This document shows positions 893 to 19,020 of a DNA stretch of 35,775 nt, one piece after another; position 1 is the first letter of the stretch, and every line of letters starts with the position of its first letter. The notes beneath the pieces are model-generated. The model was not told the DNA's origin and made no database searches. It saw nothing but the letters and a program-made list of their open reading frames with translations. The position numbers and the translations under genes were made by a program. The DNA comes from a virus: positions 1 through 35,775 of IMG/VR virus record IMGVR_UViG_3300048839_000322; one strand, written 5' to 3'.

Positions 893-1954
893 TTACTGAG
901 CTTCTTTAACCAAACCGTGCTCGGCATCGAAAGCCGCCAAAGTTTCCTTAACCTCAGCCTCAGTCTTACCAGCCTTAACGAGTTCGGTTTCCAACTTAAT
1001 CCGTGCCGAACGAACCTCAGCGTCCTTCGCACGTCGCTCAAGACGATCAGCCTTGGCCTTTTCCTTCTTCTCGTTGATCGCAGCTTGCTTCGATTCCCAC
1101 TGGCGACGACCCTCGGCCACGCTCATCGGGTCCAGGTGCAACGACCACTTAACACCCAGAGTAAAAGCCTCAACCGGATCAGTAATACCTTCCTGATTAA
1201 CCAGCAGCTGAGCGATAGCGGGCTTGTCAACTTCAGCCTTAGCTTCCGCCAACTTCTGGAACCGAGGAATCGGAACGAAATCAGCCGGAGAAGCCGCGCG
1301 ACCTTCACGGCGAGCCTTGTCCAATTCCTTCTTGCGTTCGCCCATCTTCGGAACGAACTCGCTAGGTGTCTCAGTCATAGCCTGGTCGATGAAGTTGGTC
1401 TGTTCTTCGACAGGCAGCTTAGCAAGAGCGTAAGCATTGCTGAGATTGATCTTGCCGTCGTCAACCAACTCGGCAACCTTCTTGTCCAGATTCAGCAAAC
1501 CGAGTCGCTGGCTAATCCAAGCAGACGACTTATTCAGTTGCGAAGCCAGAACAGATACAGTCAAGAGCGGGTCCAGAGCAAGAATCTTCTGGAGATGCTT
1601 TGAGTACTCAACCGGCTTCGTTTCAATCCGATGAATGTTACCGACAATCTGCTTACGCAGCAGAGCGGCTTCATTCTCATTGGAAATAACGTTAGCGGGG
1701 ATGGTCTCAAGGCCACAATCAAGTACGGCGTTAAAACGTTGAACGCCATCAACCAACTCGTAATACTGTTCGCCGGTGCCAGCGTCTGCTCGTACACAGA
1801 CAACAATCGGATTCATAAGACCATCAGTCTTAATCGAACCGACCAGCTCGACATATGCTTCTGATTCGCGTTGAGCACCACGAAGTGCTTGCTTCGATTC
1901 GCGGACCATAGATACGGCGATTTCCTGAACACCCTGAGCCAATACTTCGGACAT
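893..1954 (-). CDS. ParB/Srx-type DNA-binding protein
   Basis: 353 residues from ATG 1954, chosen over the GTG at 1966 because a GTGAGG ribosome site sits six bases before this ATG. The N-terminal half has the ParB layout. A 'question N, get answer' beta segment (SIKTDGLMNPIVV) is followed by the box resembling GERR (here DGVQRFNAV), then the arginine-containing NIHRIETKPVEY segment that corresponds to the ENIQR box. Next comes a helix-turn-helix region (LTVSVLASQLNKSSAWISQR, then INLSNAYALAKL). The C-terminal 130 residues are highly charged and helical, likely coiled coil. ParB proteins bind centromere-like parS sites and the family binds CTP. In phages such proteins serve partition or transcription control. 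No ParA partner is in the window. The nearest upstream DNA is the divergent control region, a possible target. Confidence 0.85.
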   Translation of the reverse strand: MSEVLAQGVQEIAVSMVRESKQALRGAQRESEAYVELVGSIKTDGLMNPIVVCVRADAGTGEQYYELVDGVQRFNAVLDCGLETIPANVISNENEAALLRKQIVGNIHRIETKPVEYSKHLQKILALDPLLTVSVLASQLNKSSAWISQRLGLLNLDKKVAELVDDGKINLSNAYALAKLPVEEQTNFIDQAMTETPSEFVPKMGERKKELDKARREGRAASPADFVPIPRFQKLAEAKAEVDKPAIAQLLVNQEGITDPVEAFTLGVKWSLHLDPMSVAEGRRQWESKQAAINEKKEKAKADRLERRAKDAEVRSARIKLETELVKAGKTEAEVKETLAAFDAEHGLVKEAQ

Positions 1955-1996
1955 ACGAAACCTCACATGTGAGTAAACAGAAACGAATCAACAATT

Positions 1997-2025
1997 TTAA
2001 TCGAATCAGTTTTCGATTCGATTAA
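1997..2025 (-). promoter_or_regulatory. palindromic leader/operator of the leftward ParB-like operon
   Basis: A perfect 11-bp inverted repeat (TTAATCGAATC at 1997-2007, complement at 2015-2025) with a 7-base spacer. It sits between the promoter-like box at 2046-2060 and the ParB-like start. The same palindrome occurs in mirrored position before the primase gene (2263-2292). It could be an operator for a dimeric repressor or an RNA hairpin in the leader. The symmetry is visible directly; the role is inferred. Confidence 0.6.
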
Positions 2026-2045
2026 TAACGGGATGCCCTTACACC

Positions 2046-2060
2046 ATACTATACACCAAA
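2046..2060 (-). promoter_or_regulatory. promoter-like box for the leftward ParB-like operon
   Basis: Read leftward, the sequence is TTTGGTGTATAGTAT, with TATAGT as a -10-like hexamer directly preceded by TG. Exactly the same 15 bases occur on the opposite strand at 2233-2247 before the primase gene. I see no good TTGACA-like -35; the upstream bases are A/T-rich repeats. The exact duplication and symmetric placement are the main evidence. Confidence 0.6.
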
Positions 2061-2232
2061 GCAAATAAAAATAAAAATAAACCGTGAAAATTTTTGCAAT
2101 ATATGAACGCGCGCGAGAGCTAACTGACAACGTGAAAATTCCCTATCCCCCTATACGCTCCCTTTTCTATTCTCCCCTTTTCGTCACATTAATTTTTTTA
2201 TTTGGTTGTTAGTTAGTTAGTAATTTTACCTA
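2061..2232. other. 172-bp spacer between divergent promoters, no gene; candidate origin or ParB site
   Basis: No ORF or RNA gene is visible. The stretch holds A-rich repeats (2064-2080), a 10-base direct repeat CGTGAAAATT at 2083-2092 and 2131-2140, a GC-alternating patch (ACGCGCGCGAGAGC, 2107-2120), a pyrimidine-rich stretch (about 2141-2180), and a GTTA tandem tract (2208-2221). An AT-rich, repeat-bearing gap between a ParB-like gene and a primase-helicase gene is a natural place for a replication origin or centromere site. Nothing here proves that. Confidence 0.35.
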
Positions 2233-2247
2233 TTTGGTGTATAGTAT
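2233..2247 (+). promoter_or_regulatory. promoter-like box for the rightward replication operon
   Basis: TTTGGTGTATAGTAT, identical to the box on the other strand at 2046-2060. The TATAGT hexamer at 2240-2245 lies 71 bases before the primase ATG. No convincing -35 is seen. Divergent placement with the ParB-like box suggests the two operons are switched together. Confidence 0.6.
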
Positions 2248-2262
2248 TATGGAGAGACATTT

Positions 2263-2292
2263 ATTAATCGAATCAAAACTGATTTGATTAAT
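2263..2292 (+). promoter_or_regulatory. palindromic leader/operator of the replication operon
   Basis: Inverted repeat ATTAATCGAATC (2263-2274) with GATTTGATTAAT (2281-2292), twelve positions with one G-T pair, spacer AAAACT. It begins 17 bases after the -10-like hexamer. It is the mirrored counterpart of the palindrome at 1997-2025, sharing TAATCGAATC and the AAAACTGATT core. It could act as a repressor site or leader hairpin. Confidence 0.6.
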
Positions 2293-2316
2293 TTTATTTG
2301 ATTTATGGGAGGGACA

Positions 2317-5300
2317 ATGAATCAACCGACTCGCACCCAGGCAATCAGTAGTTTCCTGCTTGCCAAGACGCACAAGGATCTTGCTACTTTGTACAATCCA
2401 AATATGGAGGTACAAGTGAATGTGGCTCAGGACGGAGGCGAACGTGTAGAATCCACTTTCCAGGGTAGACAGTGGCACGGCTGGTCTGATGGTTTGCAAA
2501 CGTGGAAATCTTTTCGTATACCTTATAAAGCTAATTCTAATCCGGAATACACCGATAAGCCGATGTCTTTCGATTTAACAGCCCATGTCGAAGGTATCGG
2601 CATGACTGGTTGGGACTGGGTTAATCGGTGCTCACGATGGGTAGCTTTCGATTTCGATGCTATCGTCGGTCATAGTGATCGACATGGTAAGAAACTATCA
2701 GATGTTGATTTGAAAACCGTTCAGCAAAAAGTTAAAGACATTCCGTGGGTGACAATCAGATACTCGACATCCGGTTCCGGACTTCATTTGTACGTGTTTC
2801 TCGATGCCGTACCCACCGCGAACCATAACGAACATGCAGCACTTGCACGCTCGATTATAGGCGTGCTTTCAGCAATCACATCATATGATTTGAAATCTAA
2901 AGTTGACATTTGCGGTGGCAACATGTGGGTCTGGCATCGTAAGATGCAAGGTACCTGCGGGCTTGAATTAGTTAAGCAAGGTGGTGTACTAACTGATTTA
3001 CCATTAAATTGGAAAGATCATGTTAAGGTAGTAACTGGTACGCGTAATAAGATACTGCCGAAGTTCGCTGCTGAGTCTGATGATATCGAAACAATGTTCG
3101 AGGAGCTTTCAAGCCAACGAACTAAGATTCCATTAGATGATGAGCATCGTAAGTTAATTGATTACCTTCAAGAAAAGGGGTTCGTTTGGTGGTGGGATGC
3201 TGACCATCACATGCTTGTTACACATTCGTTTGCCCTTAAGAAGGCTCATCAAGATTTAGGCTTACGCGGTATCTATGATACAATGTCTCAAGGTACTGAA
3301 CTACATGAGCAAAATTGTTTCAGTGGTGATACTGAAGTAATTACAAAGGACGGTGTTTTTACTTTAAAAGAGTTGGAAGGCACTGAGCCAGAATTGTATG
3401 TTAAAACAGATTCTGGCTTTGAATGGGTAAAAAGCAAAGTGTTATGCTTTGGGGAACAACACACTTTTCCAATTACTTTCGGTGACGGGCATACTGTAAG
3501 GACTACATATAATCACGAGTGGCTTGTAAATCAAAATAAAAAAATTGTTAGAAAATTTACTTATGAGTTAGTTGAAGGCAAAACAGAGTTGGTGTATGCA
3601 AATTATAACCTGCCTGAAATAGATTATGAGGGATATGCTCATGGTTTTGTATACGGCGATGGTTGGGATTATTTCGATAAAAAAGGCAATCATACTTGTC
3701 AAGTAGCGCTTTTTAAGCACGATAATGATTTATTAAATTTACTAACAAGGTATGGTGATTATGCCAATTGGAAATTAAATGGGAAGCAAACAAATTTTAT
3801 TGTTAAATTACCAAATCATTGGAAGACACTACCTAAGTCACCTTCAAAAGAATATGCTTTAGGTTTTATTCTTGGCTTAATCAGTGCTGATGGTCATGTA
3901 GCTAAGAAAAGTGCAGGTGTAAAAATATTTCAATCTGATTTTATTGCTTTAGACAAAATTAGAAAACTTGCTATTTTTGCTGGATTAAAATGTAATCCAA
4001 TCAGATTATACACTAACAGTGATAATTTTAATAGGGGGACTTTTGCAAATTCAAAAGATGGTTGGGCTTTTTCTATAAATACATCTAATTTAACATCGTC
4101 GTATTTTATAAGAAGTGATCAGAGAAAATCTTTTATCACAAGACGAACATCTAAATCAATTACTGTAGCTAAAATGGATCTTTTGAATCTAAAAAAAGAG
4201 AAGGTATATTGTGCAGTAGTACCTAAATACCATAATTTTACTTTGTCAAATTGGGTTGTCACTGGCAATTGTTTTTGTGCGCCACTGCGTCGTGGAGCAT
4301 GGTCAGTAAGACGCTTTACACCAGGCGTACAGGAAGCAAATACTTGGACAACTGATTCATCTGGTTGGACACAATGTTACTTCAATCAATCTCCTGATCT
4401 ACGGACAGTTGCGAGAGCATTTGGAGGCGTCGAGGATACCGACGGTGCCTATGTATTTAGGGAAGCTGAGGTTGCTAATCAGGCCACAAGTCTCTTAGGT
4501 GCTACATTGGAGTTACCTAACTGGCTGATGTCTGGTCGTGAAACTAAGCTCAAGCAACATAAAGATGGTAGGATCATCGTCGAAATCAAGCACGAAGCCA
4601 GTGATATCGCGACACCGATAATGTCACAGTGGTTGATTAAGAAAGGTGCTTGGTTACGCATTTACAATATCAAAAATAGTGACGTGGGCGAACCAGAAAC
4701 AGGTAACTATGATGATCTCGTTAGGCATCTCGTAACGGAATCTGGTGAAGATGCTGGTTGGGTAATTAAGAATGAAGGTAATTGGATTAGTGAACCTTAT
4801 GTCCATGTAAAAATATTTTTACAGGGACTGGGTATCGTTCAGAAAGAAACTACTCAGATACTTGGTTCATGTATTAATAAATGTTGGAGACTAGTTAATC
4901 GACCATTCCAAGATGAGTATATCGGTGATAGGCAGTGGAATCGAACTGCTGCTCAATTACGTTTCACTCCATCTGATCCAACTGGTCGTTTGTACTATCC
5001 GACATGGTTGTTAATTCTTAACCACGTTGGTCAAAGTCTCGATCCAATTATTAAACAGAATCCTTGGGCGAAAATGAATCATGTACTTACGGGTGCAGAC
5101 TATCTTAAGTGCTGGTTATCGTCGATGTTCAAGGAACCAACGGAGCCATTACCTTATTTGTTCTTGTACGGGCCACAAGCTAGTGGCAAGTCAATCTTCC
5201 ATGAGGCGATTGAGTTGCTAGTAACTGGTGGTGTCGTTCGTGCGGACGCGGCATTAATTAATCAATCTGGTTTCAATGCTGAGATTGAGAATGGTGTATT

Positions 5301-5964
5301 ATGCGTTGTTGAAGAAACCGATATGCAAAAGAACAAAGTTGCTTACAATCGTATTAAGGACTTTGTCACTAGCAGAAAAGTATCTATACATCGTAAGGGT
5401 CAGACACCGTATTCAATCACGAATACAAGTCACTGGCTTCAATGTAGTAATGATATGAATGCTTGTCCTGTGTTTCCAGGTGATAGCCGTATCACAATGT
5501 TATATGTACCTGAATTAAAGAATCATATTCCAAAGAAAGAATTGATTCCTCGTTTAGAAAAGGAGGCACCTGATTTCCTTAGTGTATTACTTAACCTCGA
5601 ATTACCATATTCTCACGACCGTTTGAATATCCCAGTAATCGAGACTGAGGATAAGAAATCTGCTCAGGCTGCGAATCGTTCGTTACTTGAAGAATGGCTT
5701 GATGATTGTTGTCACTATTCCCCAGGTTGCTGGATTAAGTATGCTGATCTTTACGCTGCTTTCAAAGAATGGGCAGATCCGAACTATCATTTTGAATGGT
5801 CGATGGTAAGATTTGGAAAGGAGTTACCGAAACATAAGTTTCCTAAAGGTAGGAATCCGAAGGATGCACAATGGTATATCGGTAATATATCTTTCGAGGC
5901 TGAACCCGATACTGGCAAGATTTATAAGTTAGATGGTGACAAGTTAGTCTTAACGGAGAAATAA
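2317..5964 (+). CDS. AEP-type primase/superfamily 3 helicase with an in-frame intein
   Basis: 1215 residues from ATG 2317, preferred over ATG 2305 because GGGAGGG lies just before it. An archaeo-eukaryotic-type primase domain occupies about 50-210, with metal-binding Asp112 and Asp114 (VAFDFDAI) and the Ser-x-His motif ending at His157 (SGSGLHLYV). An intein occupies 334-651. After it comes a linker domain, then a D5/P4-like helicase: Walker A GPQASGKS at 952-959 and Walker B with Glu999-Glu1000 (LCVVEET). The C-terminal 170 residues resemble the winged-helix tail of such helicases. Proteins of this class prime and unwind phage or plasmid DNA at the origin. The spliced product would be 897 residues, joining HEQN to CFCAPLRRG. 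It is the first gene of the rightward operon and is followed one base later by the next start. Confidence 0.9.
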   Translation: MNQPTRTQAISSFLLAKTHKDLATLYNPNMEVQVNVAQDGGERVESTFQGRQWHGWSDGLQTWKSFRIPYKANSNPEYTDKPMSFDLTAHVEGIGMTGWDWVNRCSRWVAFDFDAIVGHSDRHGKKLSDVDLKTVQQKVKDIPWVTIRYSTSGSGLHLYVFLDAVPTANHNEHAALARSIIGVLSAITSYDLKSKVDICGGNMWVWHRKMQGTCGLELVKQGGVLTDLPLNWKDHVKVVTGTRNKILPKFAAESDDIETMFEELSSQRTKIPLDDEHRKLIDYLQEKGFVWWWDADHHMLVTHSFALKKAHQDLGLRGIYDTMSQGTELHEQNCFSGDTEVITKDGVFTLKELEGTEPELYVKTDSGFEWVKSKVLCFGEQHTFPITFGDGHTVRTTYNHEWLVNQNKKIVRKFTYELVEGKTELVYANYNLPEIDYEGYAHGFVYGDGWDYFDKKGNHTCQVALFKHDNDLLNLLTRYGDYANWKLNGKQTNFIVKLPNHWKTLPKSPSKEYALGFILGLISADGHVAKKSAGVKIFQSDFIALDKIRKLAIFAGLKCNPIRLYTNSDNFNRGTFANSKDGWAFSINTSNLTSSYFIRSDQRKSFITRRTSKSITVAKMDLLNLKKEKVYCAVVPKYHNFTLSNWVVTGNCFCAPLRRGAWSVRRFTPGVQEANTWTTDSSGWTQCYFNQSPDLRTVARAFGGVEDTDGAYVFREAEVANQATSLLGATLELPNWLMSGRETKLKQHKDGRIIVEIKHEASDIATPIMSQWLIKKGAWLRIYNIKNSDVGEPETGNYDDLVRHLVTESGEDAGWVIKNEGNWISEPYVHVKIFLQGLGIVQKETTQILGSCINKCWRLVNRPFQDEYIGDRQWNRTAAQLRFTPSDPTGRLYYPTWLLILNHVGQSLDPIIKQNPWAKMNHVLTGADYLKCWLSSMFKEPTEPLPYLFLYGPQASGKSIFHEAIELLVTGGVVRADAALINQSGFNAEIENGVLCVVEETDMQKNKVAYNRIKDFVTSRKVSIHRKGQTPYSITNTSHWLQCSNDMNACPVFPGDSRITMLYVPELKNHIPKKELIPRLEKEAPDFLSVLLNLELPYSHDRLNIPVIETEDKKSAQAANRSLLEEWLDDCCHYSPGCWIKYADLYAAFKEWADPNYHFEWSMVRFGKELPKHKFPKGRNPKDAQWYIGNISFEAEPDTGKIYKLDGDKLVLTEK
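3316..4269 (+). mobile_element. intein with LAGLIDADG endonuclease domain, in the primase-helicase
   Basis: In-frame insertion of 318 residues between the primase and helicase domains. It starts with Cys1 (CFSGDTEVITKDG, block A), has a block B T-x-x-H (TTYNHEWL), and ends with block F/G (YHNFTLSNWVVTGN) before a Cys at the +1 position. Two LAGLIDADG-like helices are visible, GFVYGDGW and LGFILGLISADGHV, each with its acidic residue, so the homing endonuclease may be active. The penultimate residue is Gly rather than the usual His. The DNA looks more AT-rich than the flanking extein sequence, consistent with separate acquisition. Confidence 0.92.
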
Positions 5965-5965: not shown

Positions 5966-6271
5966 ATGAAACTGTTTGAGAAATTAAAGATGCTTGCTAG
6001 TATTGCAAAAAAGCAAGATTGTAAAAAACTATATTTCAGATTTGACTCACTTGGTAATTGGTATGTTATACCGACAACAAAAGTCACAGTTGATGGACAA
6101 TCTGGTACAATTGAAATTGAAGCAGAGATTCCTTTTAACATAGTGAATATTACTAGAGTGTCACTTTATTACTGCGGAGAAGAACTGTATACTGGGATGA
6201 AATCATTTAGCCTTAATGTAGGTGATTTATTTCATTTAACTTTCTCATTTCCTATTAGAGGTTCAATATGA
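5966..6271 (+). CDS. small protein of unknown function
   Basis: 101 residues, starting one base after the primase-helicase stop, with a GGAG ribosome site inside the end of that gene. It has a basic helical N-terminus (KLFEKLKMLASIAKK) and then alternating hydrophobic residues suggesting a beta-rich domain (YFRFDSLGNWYVIP, TIEIEAEIPF, LFHLTFSFPI). No signal peptide and no known motif. Its stop overlaps the next start as ATGA, so it is translated with the replication genes. Function unknown. Confidence 0.7.
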   Translation: MKLFEKLKMLASIAKKQDCKKLYFRFDSLGNWYVIPTTKVTVDGQSGTIEIEAEIPFNIVNITRVSLYYCGEELYTGMKSFSLNVGDLFHLTFSFPIRGSI

Positions 6272-6498
6272 ACGAGTACTTTGATTACGAAAGCTGTGAA
6301 CAGATTTTCGACACTATCACGCAATTCTATGATTGCATCTTAAAGAAACCTATCGGGCATTATACAGTTGGTGCCCGCGTTAGTTCTATTACAATCGATT
6401 TCGAGAAATTAATTGCTGAGTTTTATGAAAGTGAATGTGCTGAACAACCAACTGTTGTGTTCGATTTCACGCTCAATTTTAAGGCTCAAAAATGTTAA
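6268..6498 (+). CDS. small protein of unknown function
   Basis: 76 residues, acidic, beginning at the ATGA overlap with the previous gene and overlapping the next start by seven bases. Its second half has the same kind of alternating pattern (SSITIDFEKLIAEF, VVFDFTLNF) as its neighbour, but I see no clear homology. Tight coupling on both sides supports it being real. Function unknown. Confidence 0.65.
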   Translation: MNEYFDYESCEQIFDTITQFYDCILKKPIGHYTVGARVSSITIDFEKLIAEFYESECAEQPTVVFDFTLNFKAQKC

Positions 6499-7040
6499 TT
6501 GCTTTAGGTCATCGGCGGTACGTTGGTAAGGATACAGCTGCTCGGTTCATTACAAACCATGTACGCTTGGAGCACCGTGGCTTACAGTGTCAGAAGATCA
6601 GTTTCGCAACAGAACTAAAGTCGATGTGTTATCATCTTTTTAAACAGTATGGTTTGCTACCTGCTGTTTACTATGAACAGCACCCAGCTGAAAAAGATGT
6701 TAAGATACCGACTATAGGGATGTCTCCGAGAGAGATTTGGATTAAAGTTGGTAACGATATTCGTGCTATCCAACCTAATACTTGGATTGATCTTACACTA
6801 AATAGTGCCACGGCTCCAGTGACAATTATCGCAGACTTGCGGTATCTAGATGAAGCTAAGACTATTAAGGAACGTGGCGGTATTTTAGTTAAGATCGAAC
6901 GACCTGATATACCGGAAAGCGATGATATCGCTGACAACAACCTTAAGGATTTCGATGGTTGGGATTACACCATTATCAATACTAGTATAGCTGAATTACA
7001 TAACCAGATTATAGCTATCGTCGATAAGGTGTTATCATGA
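6492..7040 (+). CDS. deoxynucleoside monophosphate kinase (T4 gp1-like)
   Basis: 182 residues with an N-terminal P-loop of the dNMP kinase kind (GHRRYVGKDTAA), a following helix, and the segment TIGMSPREIWIKVGNDIRA that matches the conserved SPR/R-x-x-W-x-x-x-G-x-D region of phage dNMP kinases. Later come a strand plus D-x-R-Y (VTIIADLRYLDEA) and the end segment WDYTIINTSI. These enzymes phosphorylate dNMPs to dNDPs for phage DNA synthesis, and in T4 also a modified dCMP. It overlaps the genes before and after by a few bases, within the replication operon. Confidence 0.85.
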   Translation: MLIALGHRRYVGKDTAARFITNHVRLEHRGLQCQKISFATELKSMCYHLFKQYGLLPAVYYEQHPAEKDVKIPTIGMSPREIWIKVGNDIRAIQPNTWIDLTLNSATAPVTIIADLRYLDEAKTIKERGGILVKIERPDIPESDDIADNNLKDFDGWDYTIINTSIAELHNQIIAIVDKVLS

Positions 7041-7894
7041 CCGAAGAATCCGAAAAATTATTGCGTCTATTTCAAGAGATGGATGATACACCAGTAGTTA
7101 GGGAAACTTATAAAAGAGGGCCTCTTAACTACACAGGCTCGAAAAGAGACACGCTGGATGAGATCATCAAGTTACTACCGTATCGTAATACTTGGGTTGA
7201 TGTTTTTGGCGGCTCTGGCATTGTTACTCTTGCTAGAAAACCAAGTAAGTTAGAGGTATTTAATGACAGGCATAGTAGCATATGTGATTTCTTTAGGGCC
7301 TGTCAATCTAGGCCAAACGAACTCATTGCTGCAATTGAACTCATGCCGCACTCAAGAGAACTGTTCATACGAGCTAAAACTGAAACCAGTGATGATGTCG
7401 TCACAAGAGGAGCCTATTGGTACTACCTCGTCCAAAGTTCCTTCGCAGGTCGAGGGCAATATTTCGGTAGAGTAGTGAAAGGCAAGAACACGATTCTTGC
7501 TAAGCTCTATAAGAACTTAGAACTACTTCCCTGGGTTCACCAGAGATTTAAGCAAGTTACAGTTGAAAATCTCGACTGGGAACAATGCTTTACTGATTAT
7601 GATTCTTACGATACTGTATTCTATTGTGATCCACCTTACATCGGAGGTAATGTATATGAGTTCAATATGTCGTTGGACGAACACAAAAGATTATGCGAAA
7701 AAATTTCTGAACTCAAGGGTTTTGTTGCCCTTAGTGGTTTCGATAATGATGTATATAATAGCTTTCATTGGGATGGTAAGCACGCATTTGATATTAAAAA
7801 TCGTGTCTCTACTGTAGCGTATAATTCTGATGAGCGTAACAGATCCAGGATTGAATGTCTTTGGATAAAGGAAGCTGGTCACCACTTAGATTAA
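7037..7894 (+). CDS. DNA adenine N6-methyltransferase (Dam/D12 class)
   Basis: 285 residues with the D12-class order of motifs: NYTGSKR (residues about 26-32), the SAM-binding motif DVFGGSGIV (about 55-63), and the catalytic DPPY in FYCDPPYIGG near 197. A region between them (about 95-180) fits the target recognition domain. Such enzymes transfer a methyl group from SAM to adenine N6, commonly in GATC; the target site here is not readable. Phage versions protect their DNA from host nucleases or alter transcription. It starts in an ATGA overlap with the dNMP kinase. No cognate restriction nuclease gene is nearby, so it is probably an orphan enzyme. Confidence 0.9.
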   Translation: MTEESEKLLRLFQEMDDTPVVRETYKRGPLNYTGSKRDTLDEIIKLLPYRNTWVDVFGGSGIVTLARKPSKLEVFNDRHSSICDFFRACQSRPNELIAAIELMPHSRELFIRAKTETSDDVVTRGAYWYYLVQSSFAGRGQYFGRVVKGKNTILAKLYKNLELLPWVHQRFKQVTVENLDWEQCFTDYDSYDTVFYCDPPYIGGNVYEFNMSLDEHKRLCEKISELKGFVALSGFDNDVYNSFHWDGKHAFDIKNRVSTVAYNSDERNRSRIECLWIKEAGHHLD

Positions 7895-7903
7895 GGTAAA
7901 TTA

Positions 7904-8629
7904 ATGGACCATTTAAATAGTAATTTGTTATGTGTCGTTGACGTGGAGACTACGGGACCTGTACCCAGGTTTCATGATATCATTGAAATCTGTGTACTAC
8001 CTTTAGATAACGACTTGAAGCCGCACAAGTTCATCCTACCATTTTGTATGAATCTCGTTCCTATGCGCAAAGAGAATATCGACCACGAAGCTCTGCGTAT
8101 ACAACGTAAGGATTTGGATTCATTACAGAAGCACAAAATTTGTTGGCAGCGTGACAGGTTAATCGATCTAACTCTTAAAGGTTGTGAGCCTGGTCGTGCA
8201 GCGGATTTATTTGTTGAATGGTTTGAAAAGCTAAAGCTACCGGCTTTTAAACGTATTATGCCGGTAGCTCACAATTGGGTTTTCGATCGTGATTTCATTA
8301 TCGACTGGCTAGGGCCACAGACTTTCGATATGTGTTTTGATCCTCGGTACCGAGACACTATGTGTATGAGTTTGTATGATAATGACATCGCTGGATGGCA
8401 TATTACAGACTATCCTTATCCGAAAAATAATCTAGCTTACGTTGCTCAGTGTCTGGGTGTGCCTCATGATCATGCACACACTGCACTTGATGACTGCGTT
8501 ACTACGGCTGAGGTTTTCAGATTAATGATTAAGAATGCTATTCGTATTGGTGGAGTTAATAAGCTGCCTGAACAGGTCGTAGAACCCACTACTACGGACT
8601 CTCCAACTCCAGGCCGAGATGCAATCTGA
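7904..8629 (+). CDS. DnaQ-like 3'-5' exonuclease
   Basis: 241 residues of the DEDDh exonuclease fold: Exo I VVDVETTG with Asp13 and Glu15, Exo II in VAHNWVFDRDFI, Exo III HTALDDCVTTAEVF with the His and Asp. This family trims 3' ends of DNA or RNA with two metal ions. In phages it serves proofreading or nucleotide recycling. The C-terminal 30 residues are Pro/Thr-rich and probably disordered. An AAGG site precedes the ATG. It is the last gene of the rightward operon, and its final 108 bp overlap the end of the leftward glycosyltransferase gene. Confidence 0.9.
   Translation: MDHLNSNLLCVVDVETTGPVPRFHDIIEICVLPLDNDLKPHKFILPFCMNLVPMRKENIDHEALRIQRKDLDSLQKHKICWQRDRLIDLTLKGCEPGRAADLFVEWFEKLKLPAFKRIMPVAHNWVFDRDFIIDWLGPQTFDMCFDPRYRDTMCMSLYDNDIAGWHITDYPYPKNNLAYVAQCLGVPHDHAHTALDDCVTTAEVFRLMIKNAIRIGGVNKLPEQVVEPTTTDSPTPGRDAI
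8235..8269 (-). terminator. candidate terminator of the late operon, inside the exonuclease gene
   Basis: A perfect 10-bp inverted repeat (AGCTACCGGC at 8235-8244, complement at 8260-8269) with a 15-base loop. Read leftward, the stem is followed by TTAGCTTTTC. It lies about 250 bases past the end of the GT4 gene, the last leftward late gene. The tail is only moderately T-rich, so this is tentative. Confidence 0.4.
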
Positions 8630-9403
8630 CATATTCTCTGACAGTGCTTCGTAGTTGTAGCAAGCATTCCAAATTAGATGCTCGAACAAGTCTGGGTGTC
8701 TACTACTCAATAAGTAGCCATTAAACCCATGCTCAATAAGTTCTGGCATATTACCTACAGGTGTGCTTATTACTACACAGCCACAGTGAGCAGCTTCGAG
8801 GGCCGGTGTTGGTGTGCCTTCATACTCGCTTAAGCAAATGTACACTTTATATTGGTTATACAGTTTCCTCATATCGGCGTAGTTAAGTTTCGGGCTAAAG
8901 GAATTTGCTACATGCGTAACTACTAACTTCGATTGCTGAGCAATCTCAACGCCCTTTAAAACTCGAAAATGCTCTGATGAGCACAACAAGGCCAGGTCTT
9001 TACGATCTGGCCTTTTTTCGTTGAAAAATAGTTCATCATCTATACCTTGTGGTAGATAAGCACAATTCGATGTGTCGTGATCTTTGCTCCAATACTTATA
9101 CGATAACCAGTTATTAAAGATAATATAGTCAGTGTACTTTGCAGCTTTAGTGAACTCATCAATACAATGCGGTAGCTGAATATAAGTTCCTAAGACTGCT
9201 TTAACGCCATATAATTTACATTGTGGTGCGAACCTCTCGGCTCTTGGGAAAGGTAAGATATATACTAAATCATACTCATGTATATTTGGAGGTAAGCGGT
9301 TACTGTGAGTGATCCTTATATCAGGTGGTGCATATTTGGCTAGTGCCATAGCGACACTATAATAGGCCCAACCTTTAACATCATATACTACGTGGATCTT
9401 CAT
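8522..9403 (-). CDS. family 4-type (GT-B) glycosyltransferase
   Basis: 293 residues, shorter than the usual 350-400 for the family. The N-terminal half has strands typical of a GT-B acceptor domain (KIHVVYDVKGWAYY, YIIFNNWLS). The C-terminal half has the nucleotide-sugar signature: YICLSEYEGTPTPALEAAHC with the E-x7-E arrangement, then VVISTPVGNMPELIEHGFNG. These enzymes transfer a sugar from a nucleotide donor with retention of configuration. The acceptor is unknown; a virion protein, a sugar polymer or DNA are options. It is the last gene of the leftward late operon. AGAGGA overlapping the previous stop is the ribosome site. The end overlaps the exonuclease gene, but the C-terminal segment SAWSWRVRSSGFYDLFRQL looks like a genuine family end. 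Confidence 0.88.
   Translation of the reverse strand: MKIHVVYDVKGWAYYSVAMALAKYAPPDIRITHSNRLPPNIHEYDLVYILPFPRAERFAPQCKLYGVKAVLGTYIQLPHCIDEFTKAAKYTDYIIFNNWLSYKYWSKDHDTSNCAYLPQGIDDELFFNEKRPDRKDLALLCSSEHFRVLKGVEIAQQSKLVVTHVANSFSPKLNYADMRKLYNQYKVYICLSEYEGTPTPALEAAHCGCVVISTPVGNMPELIEHGFNGYLLSSRHPDLFEHLIWNACYNYEALSENMSDCISAWSWRVRSSGFYDLFRQLINSTNTNSILNH
8988..9018 (+). terminator. strong intrinsic terminator of the replication operon, inside the GT4 gene
   Basis: AAGGCCAGGTC (8988-8998) pairs with GATCTGGCCTT (9004-9014), eleven pairs with one G-T, around a 5-base loop, followed directly by a run of T (9013-9018). It is in the right orientation to end transcripts of the rightward operon about 360 bases after the exonuclease stop, and lies within leftward coding sequence. 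Confidence 0.75.
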
Positions 9404-9415
9404 TTTATATTTCCT

Positions 9416-9823
9416 CTAAGACCGAGCCATCCAAGGTGAACCAGAATGCAATTTTCCAATAACTTCAATCGTTGCGTGATCTGGGCATAAACGATATAGT
9501 GAATAATGACCAATCTCTACAATATGCGATGTCCAACAACCGCAAATCTCACATTTTGATTGTGTATTACTTGAATCCCATTCTCTCCATGTATTATCGA
9601 TCTCATAAACTGCATAACAAGCCCATGCTTCTTCAGCAGTATCGTGCCCACAGGTATGGTACTTTACTCTATTGGCTTCACATTTTGCTACATATTCCTC
9701 CCAATCAGGAAGATTATATTTGTTATCTAGCGATGGAAAACCAGCACAGTAACCAGTAGCTATACCATTGCAAGTGAAATCCCATTTCCCATCTAAACGT
9801 TTTTTACTTTCAAAGTATCTCAT
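9416..9823 (-). CDS. small cysteine-containing protein of unknown function
   Basis: 135 residues from ATG 9823, chosen because GAGG lies six bases before it; in-frame ATGs at 9826 and 9853 are less well placed. The N-terminal part contains GKWDFTCNGIATGYCAGF and KYHTCGHDTAEEAWACY. The C-terminal part has CEICGCW and LCPDH, a likely zinc site. The two parts may each bind a metal. It sits between a zinc-ribbon protein gene, which it overlaps by 14 bases, and the GT4 gene, 12 bases further on. Function unknown; association with the sugar or nucleotide enzymes around it is inferred from position. Confidence 0.75.
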   Translation of the reverse strand: MRYFESKKRLDGKWDFTCNGIATGYCAGFPSLDNKYNLPDWEEYVAKCEANRVKYHTCGHDTAEEAWACYAVYEIDNTWREWDSSNTQSKCEICGCWTSHIVEIGHYSLYRLCPDHATIEVIGKLHSGSPWMARS

Positions 9824-9995
9824 CATTAACCTCAGAATCGAAATCAATATCAAGAGCTAGGTCGTGGTACACGGGTTTAATACACTCATGCCTTGGTTCC
9901 AATGTTGGTCGTACTATGAATCGCTTTCCACAGGACTTACACTCTTTTCCAACTTTTCCTGATACATCAGATTGGAACAGTATGTATTCGGCCAT
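9810..9995 (-). CDS. small zinc-ribbon protein
   Basis: 61 residues with one C-x2-C (ECKSCGKRF) and a later H-x-C (RHECI), a likely zinc knuckle, followed by an acidic tail (DLALDIDFDSEVNDEIL). AAGGGA lies eight bases before the ATG. The first 82 bases overlap, in another frame, the end of the GT2 gene, and the last 14 overlap the next gene. The clear ribbon motif and the ribosome site support it despite the overlap. It may be an adaptor or nucleic-acid-binding protein. Confidence 0.65.
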   Translation of the reverse strand: MAEYILFQSDVSGKVGKECKSCGKRFIVRPTLEPRHECIKPVYHDLALDIDFDSEVNDEIL

Positions 9996-10924
9996 TCAAA
10001 AGTTCCCTTCGTACCTATGAAAGACAAACCTAGTTTCTGCTCTGCCTTCTTAACGAAATCTCGTTTCCTAAATTGCTTATACTCTGGTGTAGGTCGTGGC
10101 CTCTCATGCCTAATACTTACGTTCTTCGCCACACCAACACGCCATTTACGAGATTTGCTTAGACTATAAAAGAAGTTAATATGTTCGTGAATTTCAAGAT
10201 CCTCGTCCCATTGATAATCAGCAAACACTTCTTTACGAAACATGCAAAAGTTATCGGTATAATCACATATAGCGTACTCTTGACCAAAACGATTTTTACG
10301 AATAATGTTAGCCGGTATCTGACCTAATGTGAAACGGTATTCATCGAAATTGTAAGCAGTGTGACAACCATTTACTGCCCCACCTATCATACCTAATTCT
10401 TTATCTTCCTGTAAGATTTGTAAAAGTATTCTTACATTCGTTTCTTCTGTGAAAACGAAGTCATCCTCAAGAATCATTAGATAAGGTGTAGTAACTTGTC
10501 TTATTGCATGGTTTCTACCCCAACTCAAATTACCTCTAGTATCTACAGTTACTACCCTTACATCTGGGTAGAAACGTTGTATGCTTCCAAGTAACTTGGC
10601 TAACGCATCAGGCCGTTTGAATGTCGTTACACAGAATGTTACTAAGCTCTTCAAAGGCGTTCCCCATTTGTCTTGTGGACAAGATTGATCCGCCCAAGCT
10701 AGTTTGTTCAAATAAATCATCTGGTCATTGATGTTGCAACCACATCGTTTATCTGCACAAGCAATACCAGTGAAGTAATCACATTTTTGGCAAATACTAA
10801 ACCGGTAATCAATCTCTTGTTGATTACAGGTAGGGTTGCCACGTAGTAGGTGACCAATAGCTGCTACTGTGAAGTTAGCGGCTTTAAGCAATACGTTTGG
10901 TCCATTAGTATTTTGATTTGCCAT
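9914..10924 (-). CDS. family 2-type glycosyltransferase with N-terminal zinc-finger-like module
   Basis: 336 residues from ATG 10924 (GGAG ribosome site; the upstream ATG 10939 lies inside the radical SAM gene). Residues about 12-87 form a cysteine module: Cys33, Cys45, Cys48, Cys56, Cys61, Cys63, Cys82, ending LNKLAWADQSCPQDKW. The enzymatic part begins near 95 (LVTFCVTTFKRPDALAKLL) and has the GT-A strand order, VVTVDTRGNLSWGRNHAI and the acidic metal site LMILEDDFVF. A later WDEDLEIHEHINFFY corresponds to the ED/H-rich catalytic region of GT2 enzymes. It probably transfers a sugar with inversion. The same cysteine module occurs in the phosphoribosyltransferase-HAD protein upstream, suggesting recruitment to a common site. 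It overlaps the previous gene by 20 bases. Confidence 0.85.
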   Translation of the reverse strand: MANQNTNGPNVLLKAANFTVAAIGHLLRGNPTCNQQEIDYRFSICQKCDYFTGIACADKRCGCNINDQMIYLNKLAWADQSCPQDKWGTPLKSLVTFCVTTFKRPDALAKLLGSIQRFYPDVRVVTVDTRGNLSWGRNHAIRQVTTPYLMILEDDFVFTEETNVRILLQILQEDKELGMIGGAVNGCHTAYNFDEYRFTLGQIPANIIRKNRFGQEYAICDYTDNFCMFRKEVFADYQWDEDLEIHEHINFFYSLSKSRKWRVGVAKNVSIRHERPRPTPEYKQFRKRDFVKKAEQKLGLSFIGTKGTFEWPNTYCSNLMYQEKLEKSVSPVESDS

Positions 10925-11897
10925 AACGAAACTCTCCAATAGTTGGATACAAAGTTATAGGATCTTCGAACTCATCACATTGCATTATATCAAGAAACTG
11001 TTTGTGTTCAGGGTGACGACTATCACAAATGTTCATACTATTATACATTTCATTAGTGTGCCATACCTGTATGATTCTAGCCATATGAGCAACGTCGAAA
11101 CCATAGTCTCTAGTCATTCTAATGAAACCGGGTATATCTTTGTAATTCGCTGCCTGAACGACGAAGTTCAATTGTACTCGATATACAATATTGTCTTCTC
11201 GTAATTTCTTAACAAATTCTAAAGCTTTCGTTACCTGTTCCCATTTACCAGGCCATCTAACTTTTTCATATGTCTCTTTACAACAAGCATCAATACTTAT
11301 ATTAAGTCTTTTTATATTTTGTAAAGTACCCCATTTGACAGGTATCAATAAGCCGTTAGTGAATAATTCAATATCTAACTGTGGATATTCTCCTGCCCAA
11401 CTAAGTATTTCTAATGATGATCTACTCATTAGTGGATCACCAGAGGACATTAGTGTTAGTTCAGTAGCTGTTGGGAGGAACTCTCTACATATTTCATATA
11501 TTTTCTGATCACGTTTATCCTGATAAGGTAAATGCCCATCGACTTTCGATCTGCAACTAGGGCACGCTAGTTGGCAATGTCTATCATGCTCGAGCCATAT
11601 ACGCTTTGGTGGTAACTCCATTACTGGCTTCATCCAAGGTTCAATAGTTCCCTCAAGATGACCAGCAATTATTTTGCTGCATGGAGCACAGTATGTCTTG
11701 AAATCACCATTCAATATGGCTTGCCTCAATCCTTGATAAATAGGGTGGTTCCATATCTCCCACGGCCCTAAATCCAATTCTGGAGTAAATGCATCCCACT
11801 TACCTATTACTCCAGCCGGTGTCAACCATGCCGGACAACAAGTTGTATAGACAGATACATTGGCTCTGAACTCTTGAAACGGATTCCAGCATGTCAT
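10905..11897 (-). CDS. radical SAM enzyme with N-terminal cysteine cluster
   Basis: 330 residues from ATG 11897, chosen because AAAGGTG precedes it and it clears the previous gene; GTG 11930 lacks a site. The iron-sulfur motif C-x3-C-x2-C is at Cys108, Cys112 and Cys115 (HCQLACPSC). It is followed by LTLMSSGDPLMS, the SAM-binding GE-like strand, then LFTNGLL and LNISIDACCKETYEKVR, typical of the TIM-barrel core. Before the core, residues 1-75 carry TCW, TTCCPAW and YCAPC, resembling the auxiliary cluster region of SPASM-type enzymes, but placed N-terminally. Such enzymes generate a 5'-deoxyadenosyl radical to modify peptides, sugars or nucleotides. Substrate unknown; the glycosyltransferase neighbours favour a sugar or a virion protein. 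Confidence 0.85.
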   Translation of the reverse strand: MTCWNPFQEFRANVSVYTTCCPAWLTPAGVIGKWDAFTPELDLGPWEIWNHPIYQGLRQAILNGDFKTYCAPCSKIIAGHLEGTIEPWMKPVMELPPKRIWLEHDRHCQLACPSCRSKVDGHLPYQDKRDQKIYEICREFLPTATELTLMSSGDPLMSRSSLEILSWAGEYPQLDIELFTNGLLIPVKWGTLQNIKRLNISIDACCKETYEKVRWPGKWEQVTKALEFVKKLREDNIVYRVQLNFVVQAANYKDIPGFIRMTRDYGFDVAHMARIIQVWHTNEMYNSMNICDSRHPEHKQFLDIMQCDEFEDPITLYPTIGEFRYGKSKY

Positions 11898-11913
11898 AAC
11901 ATGGCACCTTTCA

Positions 11914-13065
11914 TTAGAGCACTTCGCCACTAGTAGGACAAACTACCATTAGATCCGGTTTAAGAGCCTTAATATCTTTAGCTTGTTGTGGGCAACTCTC
12001 AACGAAGATTTTCGTTTTTATGTTTGCTGCTTTATATTTCGCTGGAAACAAGTATTCATTTCTTGTCTGTGACATCGTTAATGATTTGACTTGAACACCA
12101 TATCTTCGTAACCAAGCTAGTGTTCGCTCACGCAATCGTTCTGGTCTACCAGTTATAATCGGTATCGGTTTATTACGTGGTAAGTACTTCGGTTTAATAT
12201 TATCCATACCAGCTTCGAAAGCCTTCTCATCATTTAAGAAAGAATCTTGGCAGATAACACCATCCATATCATAAGATAAGTTATCATTATAATGACTGTT
12301 GAAGAAGTTCCATTCTAGGAAATGTGGCGTAGCTAACTGACTTACAAAATAGTTGACTCGGTCCTCGTTACCGGGTGTGACGTAAACAGCTGCCGTATAA
12401 TAACTAATATCTTGCTTATCGTAAATCTGTTTAACAGCAGCCATCGTCTGGTAAGTCGTTACTGTGTCATCAACAATTAGCGTCTTACCTTTTACCTCAA
12501 TATGATTTCTAAGTCTGAAGCCAGAGCCGCAACGAACAGTAGTCTCATCAAATATGTCAAGACTGTAAAGTGGCAAATGTAAGTAACTAGCTATCTGCGA
12601 TCCGACAACTAAACCGGAGCGTGCCACACCAGTTACAGAAGTGATATCTTCGGGGAGCAAAGAAACTAATGATAATATGTCTTTTGATAATTGAGCAGTT
12701 GTTACCCAACAAGGCTTGATGCGATCCCATTTGTATTCTGGACAATGTTGATCTGCCCAAGCCAATTTATTAAGGAACTTAACCTCGCCATTCACATTGC
12801 AACCACATGCTTCATGTGAACAGTGTGTACCAGTGAATAAGTTGCATTGCATACAAATATCTAATCTACTTTGTACTTGAGCATCAGTACAAGTAGGCAT
12901 ACCATTTATCCAGTGCTTATAGATTGCATGTGTGAAGTTCCAAAGTCTCTTTGGTAACGTCGGTAGACCAGGACAGTAACGCTCACCACAGACGCAAAGA
13001 ATCTTTCGTTCAGTACCTTTGATCTTATAACTTTTACGACACTTAGGGCACATCCAGATCTGCAT
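11914..13065 (-). CDS. zinc module-phosphoribosyltransferase-HAD phosphatase fusion
   Basis: 383 residues in four parts. Residues 1-31 are a zinc ribbon (CPKC, CVCG). Residues about 39-113 are the cysteine module shared with the GT2 protein (Cys59, 71, 74, 82, 87, 89, 108). Residues about 120-260 are a type I phosphoribosyltransferase with the PRPP loop LIVDDTVTTYQ and the earlier VTGVARSGLVVG loop. From about 265 there is a HAD-like domain with motif I YDMDGVICQD and a later IITGRPERLRERT. The first enzyme would act with PRPP or a ribosyl nucleotide, the second removes phosphate. Together they suggest nucleotide or sugar-phosphate processing. AAGG precedes the ATG. The first 23 bases overlap the adhesin-like gene. 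Confidence 0.85.
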   Translation of the reverse strand: MQIWMCPKCRKSYKIKGTERKILCVCGERYCPGLPTLPKRLWNFTHAIYKHWINGMPTCTDAQVQSRLDICMQCNLFTGTHCSHEACGCNVNGEVKFLNKLAWADQHCPEYKWDRIKPCWVTTAQLSKDILSLVSLLPEDITSVTGVARSGLVVGSQIASYLHLPLYSLDIFDETTVRCGSGFRLRNHIEVKGKTLIVDDTVTTYQTMAAVKQIYDKQDISYYTAAVYVTPGNEDRVNYFVSQLATPHFLEWNFFNSHYNDNLSYDMDGVICQDSFLNDEKAFEAGMDNIKPKYLPRNKPIPIITGRPERLRERTLAWLRRYGVQVKSLTMSQTRNEYLFPAKYKAANIKTKIFVESCPQQAKDIKALKPDLMVVCPTSGEVL

Positions 13066-14860
13066 AGCTAACCTTCAATGTTGGTGGGTCCGAGTGATCT
13101 GCACATAATCCAGATATTAAAGCCGGGTTATAAATGTGCATTGACGGTATATCTTCATTAATCCAATTAAAAATATTCGGTGGAGTTTGTCCGTACCACT
13201 TCTCCCACATATGGTAACCAAAAGGCCCATAATATAAGTATCTGGCATAAAGATAAGTAATGAAGTGCCATTCATTCTGGTCTGTCAACATATTATAATC
13301 ATAGTATAGCATACTTTGAAAATATAATACAATAGTCTGACTTGTTGGATTACATAATATGTTATTGAAATCCGCCGTTTCCCAGTAATTACCTAGCCAC
13401 GTTGCATAGTATATTCCGATCAAGTCTGAACAGGCTTGCGTATGTCCATAGGTACAATCTGTGAACATCTCTTTAAAATTAGCAACATCTAATTTTAAAT
13501 AGCATGGTACAGCAAATGTTGGACCTTGTATGGTTATAGCACAACCGTAATCGCATTCTGGACAATTGCTATCGCTGTCAATGTGCCTACTAAAATAAAA
13601 ATAGTAATAAGGGACATTAGTTATACCAGCTTGATTATTGTCTACAACTTCCATACCAGCATAGTAACCACCAGTATTGCCGCCAGCAGCGAAGTCCCAC
13701 ATTGTGTGTTTCAATGTTCCATATACAGATGGATTCAAAATATCCCAAGCCTGATATGTAACTTGAAGAACACCATCGCCATCGAGATCCAAACACATCT
13801 CAACAATAATTTGATCTGAGAAAGGATCTGGTGATACTGCTCTTAAATTAATGATTGGTAATATATCGTAATCTATAAGAGTACCATTATTATACAATCT
13901 GAAATTAACTGTATCATCACCATATAGTTCAGCGGTAGCTAGGTACCTATTCCCATTTGATTGATTATAATTTATGAAAGCACCAGCTTCAATATCAGTA
14001 TTTTTAATAGCAAACTTGACTTTTAGCATCTGCCTTTGAGAACCAGTTGGTTCAGGCATAATACATTGTAATAGACCGCCATCTGATTTGCATACTAAAT
14101 TGCGTTCATTATAGCCTGTGCTGTCTGAGGGATTCTCTACATTTTGAATCTCCCATACACCAGTTACTACATTGAATAAGCAGCCTGGATCTGTGCCTAC
14201 TGGATAATTATTGAACCATGTTTCCAGAATTTTACAAGCTGTTGGGTTACTTACTTCTGAACAATTAACACAATCTGGGTTGGTTGTTGATTTGTGCTTA
14301 TTCCATGTAGTATTATAAAACCTAACATTTGCCGCTACTGAACCAACACCATAACCAATTTTATACCCATCAGTAAATGGGACTGTATCAAAAGTATGTG
14401 AAACATTTACAGTGCCAACTTTAGCTGTAAATGTTTTCTCCTCAGCGGAGAAACATACTTGATAAGTTGTCTGTTGATTAGGTAACGGCCCAGCCGGTAT
14501 TTGTATTGCCAGTTGAGTATCTACACCAGCGACTTTTTGTCTTAGAGAAATATAACCACATTGCGTACTTGAATCATTGAATTCAACTACTGCATAAAAC
14601 ATATTATCTTCATCTTTATAACTTATAATAATAAATGCTATATCACCAGGTCCACCAAGTATTGACCCCGTTAATATATTCTCAGCTTCTGAATCTGGAT
14701 GGTCATTTGTACTTACAATATGGGAACTAACATTATTTGATTTCAAATAGAAATTTGTTACCCATGTTCCACTTATAACTGTCCAATCACCGCTTGGTAT
14801 TGTTGGAGGGAAAGTGTCGTTAAAAATAGTACAACCGCAGCAGCAGTTACCACCTAGCAT
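13043..14860 (-). CDS. cysteine-rich jellyroll protein, probable tail fibre or receptor-binding protein
   Basis: 605 residues from ATG 14860, chosen because GGGAG lies seven bases before it; the preceding gene ends one base upstream. It opens with MLGGNCCCGC. Two similar beta-sandwich regions follow (about 12-195 and 210-445), each beginning with the F-x-D/N-x-(F/Y) and W-x-I pattern of LamG/concanavalin-like folds (FNDTFPPTIPSGDW, ETWFNNYPVG). An aromatic-rich C-terminal domain (about 450-605) contains more Cys. Cysteine pairs separate the parts (PDCVNC, NCPECDYGC). Such domains in phage tails bind glycans or host surfaces. Its position after the tail tip genes and before the glycosyltransferase island supports an exposed virion role. 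It could instead be an enzyme-like hydrolase relative. Confidence 0.7.
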   Translation of the reverse strand: MLGGNCCCGCTIFNDTFPPTIPSGDWTVISGTWVTNFYLKSNNVSSHIVSTNDHPDSEAENILTGSILGGPGDIAFIIISYKDEDNMFYAVVEFNDSSTQCGYISLRQKVAGVDTQLAIQIPAGPLPNQQTTYQVCFSAEEKTFTAKVGTVNVSHTFDTVPFTDGYKIGYGVGSVAANVRFYNTTWNKHKSTTNPDCVNCSEVSNPTACKILETWFNNYPVGTDPGCLFNVVTGVWEIQNVENPSDSTGYNERNLVCKSDGGLLQCIMPEPTGSQRQMLKVKFAIKNTDIEAGAFINYNQSNGNRYLATAELYGDDTVNFRLYNNGTLIDYDILPIINLRAVSPDPFSDQIIVEMCLDLDGDGVLQVTYQAWDILNPSVYGTLKHTMWDFAAGGNTGGYYAGMEVVDNNQAGITNVPYYYFYFSRHIDSDSNCPECDYGCAITIQGPTFAVPCYLKLDVANFKEMFTDCTYGHTQACSDLIGIYYATWLGNYWETADFNNILCNPTSQTIVLYFQSMLYYDYNMLTDQNEWHFITYLYARYLYYGPFGYHMWEKWYGQTPPNIFNWINEDIPSMHIYNPALISGLCADHSDPPTLKVSYADLDVP

Positions 14861-14861
14861 A

Positions 14862-15671
14862 TTAGCACTCCCGTCCAATAATAATCCATCTTTCAAATTC
14901 AGTGAACCATCTTACGAGAACCTCTTTACCAGAAGTTACGTTTTGATTATTATGCATCCACGTTAGCCAAGCTTCAACAATAGCGTCTGGCACAGCACCA
15001 ACACTATCGTAAATTTGAACTAGTCCAGAAGCATCTTTAATAATGTTGCCAGAAGCTACACCTAACCTAATTAAGCCCGTGCTACCAACAGTACAAGCTG
15101 TCTGTGTACTGTAGTTATAGGTGTATGGCACAACCTCATCAATCAAACCATAATTAAGATAAAAACTGTCATATACAGTTACGTCCTCATCTGTTTCAGC
15201 CCAGCCAGCATCACCAAGTGATATCATTATTTTACCAAGTGCATGACCGCCAGGTACTAATACTTCTTTTAATCTAACATGTTCGACAGTTGGCTCAACT
15301 GAGAATTTCTGACCAACAATCTGGAAATCACCTTGGCGTTGTCCTGCTATAACAGTTACACTTTGTGCTTCGATGAAAGCATAACCAGGAACATCATATA
15401 AATCTATTCCAGTAACTTCTTTACCATTTTGTAATAATACACTATATTGATTGCTACCCAGGTATTCTAATATCGTTCCAGCCCAGACATGTCTAGTAGA
15501 TGGTAATTGCTCATTTATATCTACTCTCTCGTCGAAGCCGTAAGATGATGCAGCAAGGCGATCTGGTGTACCAACTCGCCTTGAGCTGCCTTCATTAAAA
15601 TTCGTAGTCGGTGATGCTGGTTTCACATCGCCAATATCACTAGGATTCGGGTCACCGTAATCTCTTGCCAT
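14862..15671 (-). CDS. tail tip or baseplate-associated protein of unknown function
   Basis: 269 residues. The polar N-terminus (about 1-60) looks unstructured. A beta-rich segment follows (VWAGTILEYLGSNQYSVLL, GIDLYDVPG), reminiscent of the small OB-like domain found in phage tail hub or spike proteins (ILEYLGSNQYSVLLQNG), then a second domain to the end. AAAGGTGA precedes the ATG. It lies between the large tail protein and the jellyroll protein and is translationally linked to both. The virion role is inferred from position and fold style. Confidence 0.65.
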   Translation of the reverse strand: MARDYGDPNPSDIGDVKPASPTTNFNEGSSRRVGTPDRLAASSYGFDERVDINEQLPSTRHVWAGTILEYLGSNQYSVLLQNGKEVTGIDLYDVPGYAFIEAQSVTVIAGQRQGDFQIVGQKFSVEPTVEHVRLKEVLVPGGHALGKIMISLGDAGWAETDEDVTVYDSFYLNYGLIDEVVPYTYNYSTQTACTVGSTGLIRLGVASGNIIKDASGLVQIYDSVGAVPDAIVEAWLTWMHNNQNVTSGKEVLVRWFTEFERWIIIGREC

Positions 15672-15685
15672 TTAATCACCTTTTA

Positions 15686-18628: not shown

Positions 18629-19020
18629 AGTATATCACCTTCAAATTCAAGACTTATTGTAACAGCTTCTTCACTACCTAGTAGATCACTCGGATTATAC
18701 CAGGATTTCTTAAAGTTGCGTTTATCTAATTCAGAAATGAAAATAGCTAAGTATCTTATATCCTTATGATTCACTAATTCAATTTTATTACCGGCATTTA
18801 ATTTATAGAAATCTTCTAGCTCAAGACTTTTCTGTCTAGTCATTTGTATATTGAAAAGAAGCCTTACACTAGTAGTCGTTTTTAAATATGAATAAACGGT
18901 ACCATCAACTGCACGTTTTACATCTAATTCTCTGATAGGCGTATAGCTATCACCCAAATCTGGGTTAGGGAGTATAAGTGTTCTAGTGAAATTAGGGTAT
19001 GGTCCTTTCAGTATAATCAT
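18625..19020 (-). CDS. small tail protein, paralogue of its upstream neighbour
   Basis: 131 residues, beta-rich, ending TISLEFEGDIL. It is the same length and has the same C-terminal pattern as the preceding gene's product (YVIQFEFQGDLL). Both have a central helix followed by a strand, helix, strand order (KSLELEDFYKLNAGNKIEL here). Such pairs are typical of distal tail or tail-tip adaptor proteins. AAGGAG lies before the ATG, and the stop and start overlap with both neighbours as ATGA. Confidence 0.7.
   Translation of the reverse strand: MIILKGPYPNFTRTLILPNPDLGDSYTPIRELDVKRAVDGTVYSYLKTTTSVRLLFNIQMTRQKSLELEDFYKLNAGNKIELVNHKDIRYLAIFISELDKRNFKKSWYNPSDLLGSEEAVTISLEFEGDIL

Follow-up and report, generated by a model that had tools for sequence, protein, structure and literature searches.

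Putative divergent mirror-image promoters and leader operators in a tailed phage point to a genome-specific promoter class and a shared regulon

A ParB-like operon and a replication operon are read outward from a common intergenic region in a 35,775-base IMG/VR virus record (hereafter the window, meaning this whole stretch of DNA), raising the question of whether the two are controlled by a single regulator or sigma factor, as a first-pass annotation had proposed from their mirror-image boxes, and of which protein would read those boxes. A second record, G001 (IMGVR_UViG_3300048838_000497), shares 17.85 kb with the window at 99.96% identity and continues beyond it. The leftward operon is led by the ParB-like gene and the rightward operon by a primase/helicase-type gene (Table 1), which likely starts at the ATG at 2317, following GGGAGG, in a reading frame that is open from 2305. 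The primase intein (~3322-4272) has tblastn matches mainly to phage ribonucleotide reductase genes, presumably to the inteins of those genes, and the primases of the relatives we examined are ~900 aa long and carry no intein. Elsewhere in the window, a big minus-strand gene block (8522-21768) encodes a glycosyltransferase, a radical SAM protein and several long proteins without a family, and the right-end gene contains tandem repeats with a period of ~60 nt (35279-35770, visible as off-diagonal matches).

The identical 15-base boxes described on opposite strands proved to be exact copies of TTTGGTGTATAGTAT; the window holds these two and no third, even at three mismatches, and their arms extend to 28 nt at 79% identity. 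When positions 1955-2316 were searched against their own reverse complement, a match with an E value of 4e-11 was obtained, and the left half aligned to the reverse complement of the right half with a mirror score of 69, compared with 18.1 ± 2.6 in dinucleotide shuffles (0 of 200 as high). Each box is followed by a near-identical palindrome, as had been noted, with its core better given as ATTAATCGAATC and with one right half-site deviating (GATTTGATT); the spacers of the two repeats differ by 1 nt, and the distance of about 20 bases claimed between box and palindrome holds on the left (20 nt) and not on the right (16 nt). GATTYGATT half-sites occur four times in the whole window, all within the divergent control region. 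Scanning 1900-2400 for a classical host sigma-70 promoter (TTGACA-17-TATAAT) yielded no match, with only the -10 fitting, and the -35 of the twin promoters averaged 3.0 of 6 matches to the host sigma-70 consensus. Upstream of the right box lie tandem GTTA repeats, which AGTY repeats in several relatives resemble.

Table 1. Genes and putative control elements at the divergent region, in window coordinates
Feature	Position	Strand	Basis and details
ParB-like gene (ParB_N + HTH_ParB), leads leftward operon	893..1966	-	Pfam PF02195 1.7e-12, PF17762 1e-8; PHROG ParB-like partition protein 3e-26
Putative leader operator, ParB gene	1997..2025	-	Inverted half-sites TTAATCGAATC / GATTCGATTAA, spacer 7
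Left twin promoter box TTTGGTGTATAGTAT (putative)	2046..2060	-	-10-like TATAGT at 2048-2053; promoter role suggested by conservation profile over 31 relatives and by position
Tandem GTTA repeats upstream of right promoter	2207..2222	+	Read directly
Right twin promoter box TTTGGTGTATAGTAT (putative)	2233..2247	+	-10-like TATAGT at 2240-2245; exact 14-mer third copy at G001:33371-33384 (-)
Putative leader operator, replication operon	2264..2291	+	Inverted half-sites TTAATCGAATC / GATTTGATTAA, spacer 6
Primase/helicase-type replication gene with intein	2317..5964	+	PHROG DNA primase 1.6e-30; DUF5906; weak intein-splicing match
Remaining rightward operon	5966..8629	+	Two small ORFs, dNMP kinase, D12 methyltransferase, DNA polymerase exonuclease-like

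Searching related phages for the box had been suggested as a check, with lack of conservation in relatives counting against the proposal. DNA similarity to the divergent region is nil in relatives, which we at first read as non-conservation, and the letters of the box are indeed not conserved: the TTTGGTGTATAGTAT 15-mer has at least 119 scattered matches in IMG/VR, many apparently within coding sequence, and the literal palindrome pattern was found at two IMG/VR loci. Taken as a refutation this is misleading, as the arrangement itself is conserved. Pattern scans with the C-terminal ends of ParB and primase, which require exact short peptides, returned no relatives; searching via the major capsid protein identified 24, 6 of which carry ParB and primase genes that are divergent and usually adjacent. 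Alignment of the primase N-domain yielded 293 relatives in IMG/VR, from which 80 loci were retained, and 72 of these 80 have a ParB homologue upstream on the opposite strand, typically ~400 bp away. The same domain gave no match among INPHARED phages at the threshold used, and matched 7 bacterial genome contigs, 4 of them from Planctomycetota-type bins; any host assignment is a guess. Many relatives have two ParB-like genes, such as G037, whose second ParB paralogue has GATTYGATT leader sites (62721-62809).

We then asked how widely the mirror symmetry is shared, with start codons and intergenic borders chosen by script and with many records being fragmentary. Of 73 intergenic regions, the window's among them, 51 had mirror scores above all 200 dinucleotide shuffles (median z 10.9), compared with 20 of 73 for direct-repeat scores (median z 2.3), and the remaining 22 loci showed no mirror at this strict threshold. 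The arms are near-identical inside one genome and unlike between genomes, such as a 40-nt GATTAGAGAAAAGTAGGAAATGAGCGTATTATATGATGG stretch occurring twice in L237 and ATGCAAGTTTTGCAAGTTTTGACCGTTATACA occurring twice in L256. Across 51 distinct loci (<97% primase identity, and phylogenetically non-independent), the median twin score was 46 within a genome vs. 19-21 between genomes, with twins outscoring every between-genome comparison in 27 loci; at ~70-75% primase identity, orthologous promoters were mostly at background while own twins scored up to 94. Anchored on the shared -10-like hexamer, most often TATAGT or TATAAT, twin identity was 0.91 at that hexamer, 0.58-0.62 to about -28 and at background (0.3-0.4) past about +25, a profile whose shape rather than height is the evidence, since anchoring lifts the peak. 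The conserved part is promoter-shaped, and we infer that the boxes are promoters. Retention of the divergent layout across a family whose lineages each rewrite the sequence suggests a control protein that is private and changes fast, possibly a phage-encoded sigma factor. In the spacers of L217, L218, L221 and L230, a palindrome, GTAAGTCACCTAATTAGGTGACTTAC, lies just upstream of the twin promoters; in G019 and G021 it is found again ahead of the sigma gene, and related forms occur in G002 and G014.

Copies of the promoter sequence were also found away from the divergent region. Each genome was searched with its own twin consensus, the choice of genomes being exploratory at this stage, and in G001 this revealed an exact copy, TTTGGTGTATAGTA, at 33371-33384 (-), with a 200-aa gene and the large terminase gene downstream of it; this site lies outside the window, and matches with at most 2 mismatches are expected 0.09 times by chance in the 15.3-kb G001 piece. 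Exactly three exact or near copies are present in G002, G010, G014, G023, G024, G033 and G034, as well as in the window and G001 together, and in most such genomes the third copy lies close to where the terminase operon begins (TerL PHROG 2.5e-78); no third copy was found in G018, G019, G021, G028, G029, G030 and G037, some of which are fragments. When the region upstream of the terminase operon was compared with the twins of all genomes, the best match was to the twins of the same genome in 7 of 16, within a 260-nt limit that missed the G001 box at ~300 nt. Control by a single sigma factor or activator would call for such a box copy at the late operon. Each of the three G014 copies is bipartite, TTCTGCGCAACA-N13-GGGCTATAATA with an unconserved 13-nt spacer, and such fixed spacing is the signature expected of a holoenzyme site, as these copies may be.

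The leaders downstream of the promoters share a second motif. GATTTGATT is the commonest 9-mer of the outward-facing halves (60 of 102, with its reverse complement in 33), and GATTYGATT is present in both leaders at 31 of 51 distinct loci. Genome-wide it is sparse, at about 2-12 sites that fall mainly in the primase, ParB and sigma leaders; seven genomes (G019, G021, G025, G029, G035, G037 and G038) have it immediately in front of the sigma gene, and in about five more, according to the gene tables, it heads a small cluster of genes that runs up to the sigma gene. In G018, the closest relative, the unrelated GGTCTGGTC replaces GATTYGATT, with 5 copies in 49.6 kb, a pair in each of the primase and ParB leaders and a single copy at the sigma start, and similar substitutions are seen in G002 and G030. 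The order and spacing of half-sites vary among relatives (0-84 nt in most), with many leaders holding a single half-site, which argues against both a reader of a rigid palindrome and a conserved RNA hairpin. We infer that the leader sites would act as operators and repress. A conserved RNA hairpin or intrinsic terminator was considered and set aside, there being no common stem-loop in the relatives. Other elements are more dispersed: across the 69 kb of G002 (IMGVR_UViG_3300005613_000050), the 13-bp palindrome RAGTTAnTAACTY is present at 58 sites, of which 34 fall within called genes and which may be stoperator-like or ParB/Noc-like. The 35.7 kb of G005 (IMGVR_UViG_3300020163_000009; e.g., L184) contain 28 GCACTGGC-type elements; several form inverted pairs in gaps preceding genes, the primase leader among them.

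The leading candidate for the reader of the promoters is a sigma-70-family protein (PHROG 351 RNA polymerase sigma factor, up to 3.8e-20; Pfam Sigma70_r2 or r4, weak). With the window and G001 set aside, a family HMM identified convincing members in 23 of 27 relatives, with the gene ~12 kb away on the ParB side in the best-placed relatives, and with G033 and G034 encoding a different sigma subfamily elsewhere. The gene is absent from the window and G001, which is uninformative because the window contig ends 892 bases left of ParB and the expected position lies beyond it; by synteny, the window phage probably has its own. Promoter similarity and sigma identity are uncorrelated (Spearman 0.04 over 210 genome pairs, most at background for both), so the proposed sigma-promoter link draws on function and gene content. 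Beyond the leader motif, the region upstream of the sigma gene has little in common with a genome's own twin promoters in most genomes, and a consensus host promoter before the sigma gene, which we expected everywhere, scored above shuffles in only 3 of 20. Adjoining the sigma gene in most relatives (L302, L304, L306, L307) are a conserved papain/C39-like protein gene, assigned by eye with no Pfam match, and a gene for an NYN-domain nuclease.

Taken together, these patterns support, at the level of a class, the proposal that the two divergent operons share one regulator or sigma factor, with a shared control code, a family-wide architecture and the third box copy at the late operon all agreeing with it. 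We consider it probable that the family uses a genome-specific promoter class read by a private factor, with a sigma factor as the leading candidate, together with a shared leader-operator regulon. On this model, a tailed phage would have its master divergent control region at 1967-2316, where two phage-specific promoter copies fire outward, the left toward the ParB-like operon and the right toward the replication operon, with the third copy heading the terminase/late operon outside the window. The promoters would be recognised by a lineage-private factor with core RNA polymerase, possibly the fast-evolving sigma-70-family protein whose gene lies to the left of ParB in most relatives and would sit past the contig end in the window phage. 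The GATTYGATT half-sites just after the start points, and those before the sigma gene in relatives, would be bound by another trans-acting regulator, a DNA-binding protein that is probably not the ParB-like one, which would draw ParB, replication and sigma into one regulon. More tentatively, and with somewhat less than even confidence, we suggest that the whole programme (sigma factor, ParB, replication and packaging) runs on a two-part private code of sigma-read promoter triad and leader-operator regulon, which each lineage would rewrite at all sites in concert with positions fixed, perhaps against cross-regulation or exclusion by related co-infecting phages.

The boxes might instead be read by a phage activator bound over the -35 in combination with host-sigma RNA polymerase, as with lambda CII or T4 MotA. 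Host-like -10 hexamers in many genomes, -35 regions without a common consensus and the lack of sigma-promoter correlation would all fit such an activator, as would the number of targets, about three promoters per phage, which is also the number served by a CII-like activator. We nevertheless judge it unlikely, as most relatives encode a sigma-like protein, often behind the same leader operator, and no similarly conserved activator gene is conspicuous in the family table. Recombination or template switching between the inverted repeats (quasi-palindrome correction) could maintain the mirror with no shared regulator at all, the arms being inverted, close (often 50-170 nt apart) and evolving in concert; this becomes improbable given a third copy tens of kb away, identity that is limited to the promoter and leader blocks while the sequence between them has diverged, and a leader motif that also tracks to the distant sigma gene. 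That the region is a replication origin with the repeats as iterons, as the adjoining primase and the repeated palindromes in the spacers of G002 and G014 might suggest, is distinctly improbable, for the conserved blocks are promoter-shaped and outward-facing, and the same elements recur at the late and sigma operons, though the region may serve as an origin in addition.

Two further possibilities concern the leader repeats. The ParB-like protein, named as a candidate regulator in the first-pass annotation, could bind the leader palindromes and autoregulate both operons, having an HTH_ParB domain, an adjacent gene and a precedent in KorB on RK2 (PMC11790492), and the dispersed 13-bp palindromes of G002 resemble ParB-type sites. 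However, the HTH of the window protein is 82% identical to that of L215 and yet their leader operators are unrelated, and HTH similarity is a poor predictor of operator class, assigning 32 of 51 loci correctly vs. 31 of 51 for the majority class and 36 of 51 for primase similarity. With half-site arrangements that are also unlike a fixed parS/OB palindrome, KorB-style control by ParB is disfavoured and, in our estimate, quite improbable. Hairpins in both mRNA leaders, serving translational control or attenuation, would be consistent with a right arm that still pairs as RNA via a G-U pair (read directly) and with a terminator-like call on the minus strand (2025-1997), but half-site order is often reversed between the two leaders of relatives, and the variable spacers and single half-sites described above make this very improbable. 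A private factor reading the promoters, with a separate leader-operator regulator, remains our preferred explanation.

What began as a local curiosity becomes a family-wide rule with a test set of tens of genomes, in each of which two or three putative promoters match, and the presence of a candidate cognate sigma factor in most of them makes sigma-promoter co-evolution and the drivers of code switching directly testable. Mirror symmetry between divergent operons additionally provides a search recipe for phage-specific promoters in uncultivated viruses, where just two or three copies give standard motif-discovery programs little to work with. New in the present family are how widely and how strictly the sites switch jointly, the pairing of divergent ParB and replication operons, and a further leader code by which the sigma gene would be tied to the same regulon.

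Several known systems resemble parts of this arrangement. Like lambda CII, one phage factor would serve about three promoters, although neither a CII-like gene nor a TTGC-type direct repeat was recognised here. In mycobacteriophage L5, a repressor acts on dispersed stoperators, and the 58 sites of G002 are comparable in serving one regulator from many places, whereas the window has only its four half-sites in the divergent region and no recognised repressor. KorB/OB of RK2 likewise places a ParB-family protein with an HTH near a replication control region, and the dispersed palindromes of G002 are similar in idea; site geometry is variable here, no link between ParB HTH and operator was found, and a fixed palindrome of ~13-16 bp, of the KorB/ParB kind, was seen only in phages other than the window type, such as G002 and G014. 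Closest among known systems, and probably similar in how it works, is that of phiEco32 and Salmonella phage 7-11, which have in common with most relatives in this family a phage sigma-like protein and have, as this family would, few phage-specific promoters. Both encode sigma factors and have phage-specific promoters that are dissimilar between the two phages at similar genome positions, those of 7-11 being bipartite (GTAAtg-16-aCTA; PMC8948821), and divergent promoters in a large intergenic region are also known from these systems (PMC4331800). As in that pair, a phage-specific promoter motif is repeated at middle/late operons, here at G001:33371 and in relatives. In those systems the documented switch separates two phages, with promoters of the middle/late class, whereas the present family shows concerted switching over dozens of uncultivated phages, a divergent pair that would drive ParB and replication, and a second leader operator that would join the sigma gene to the regulon.
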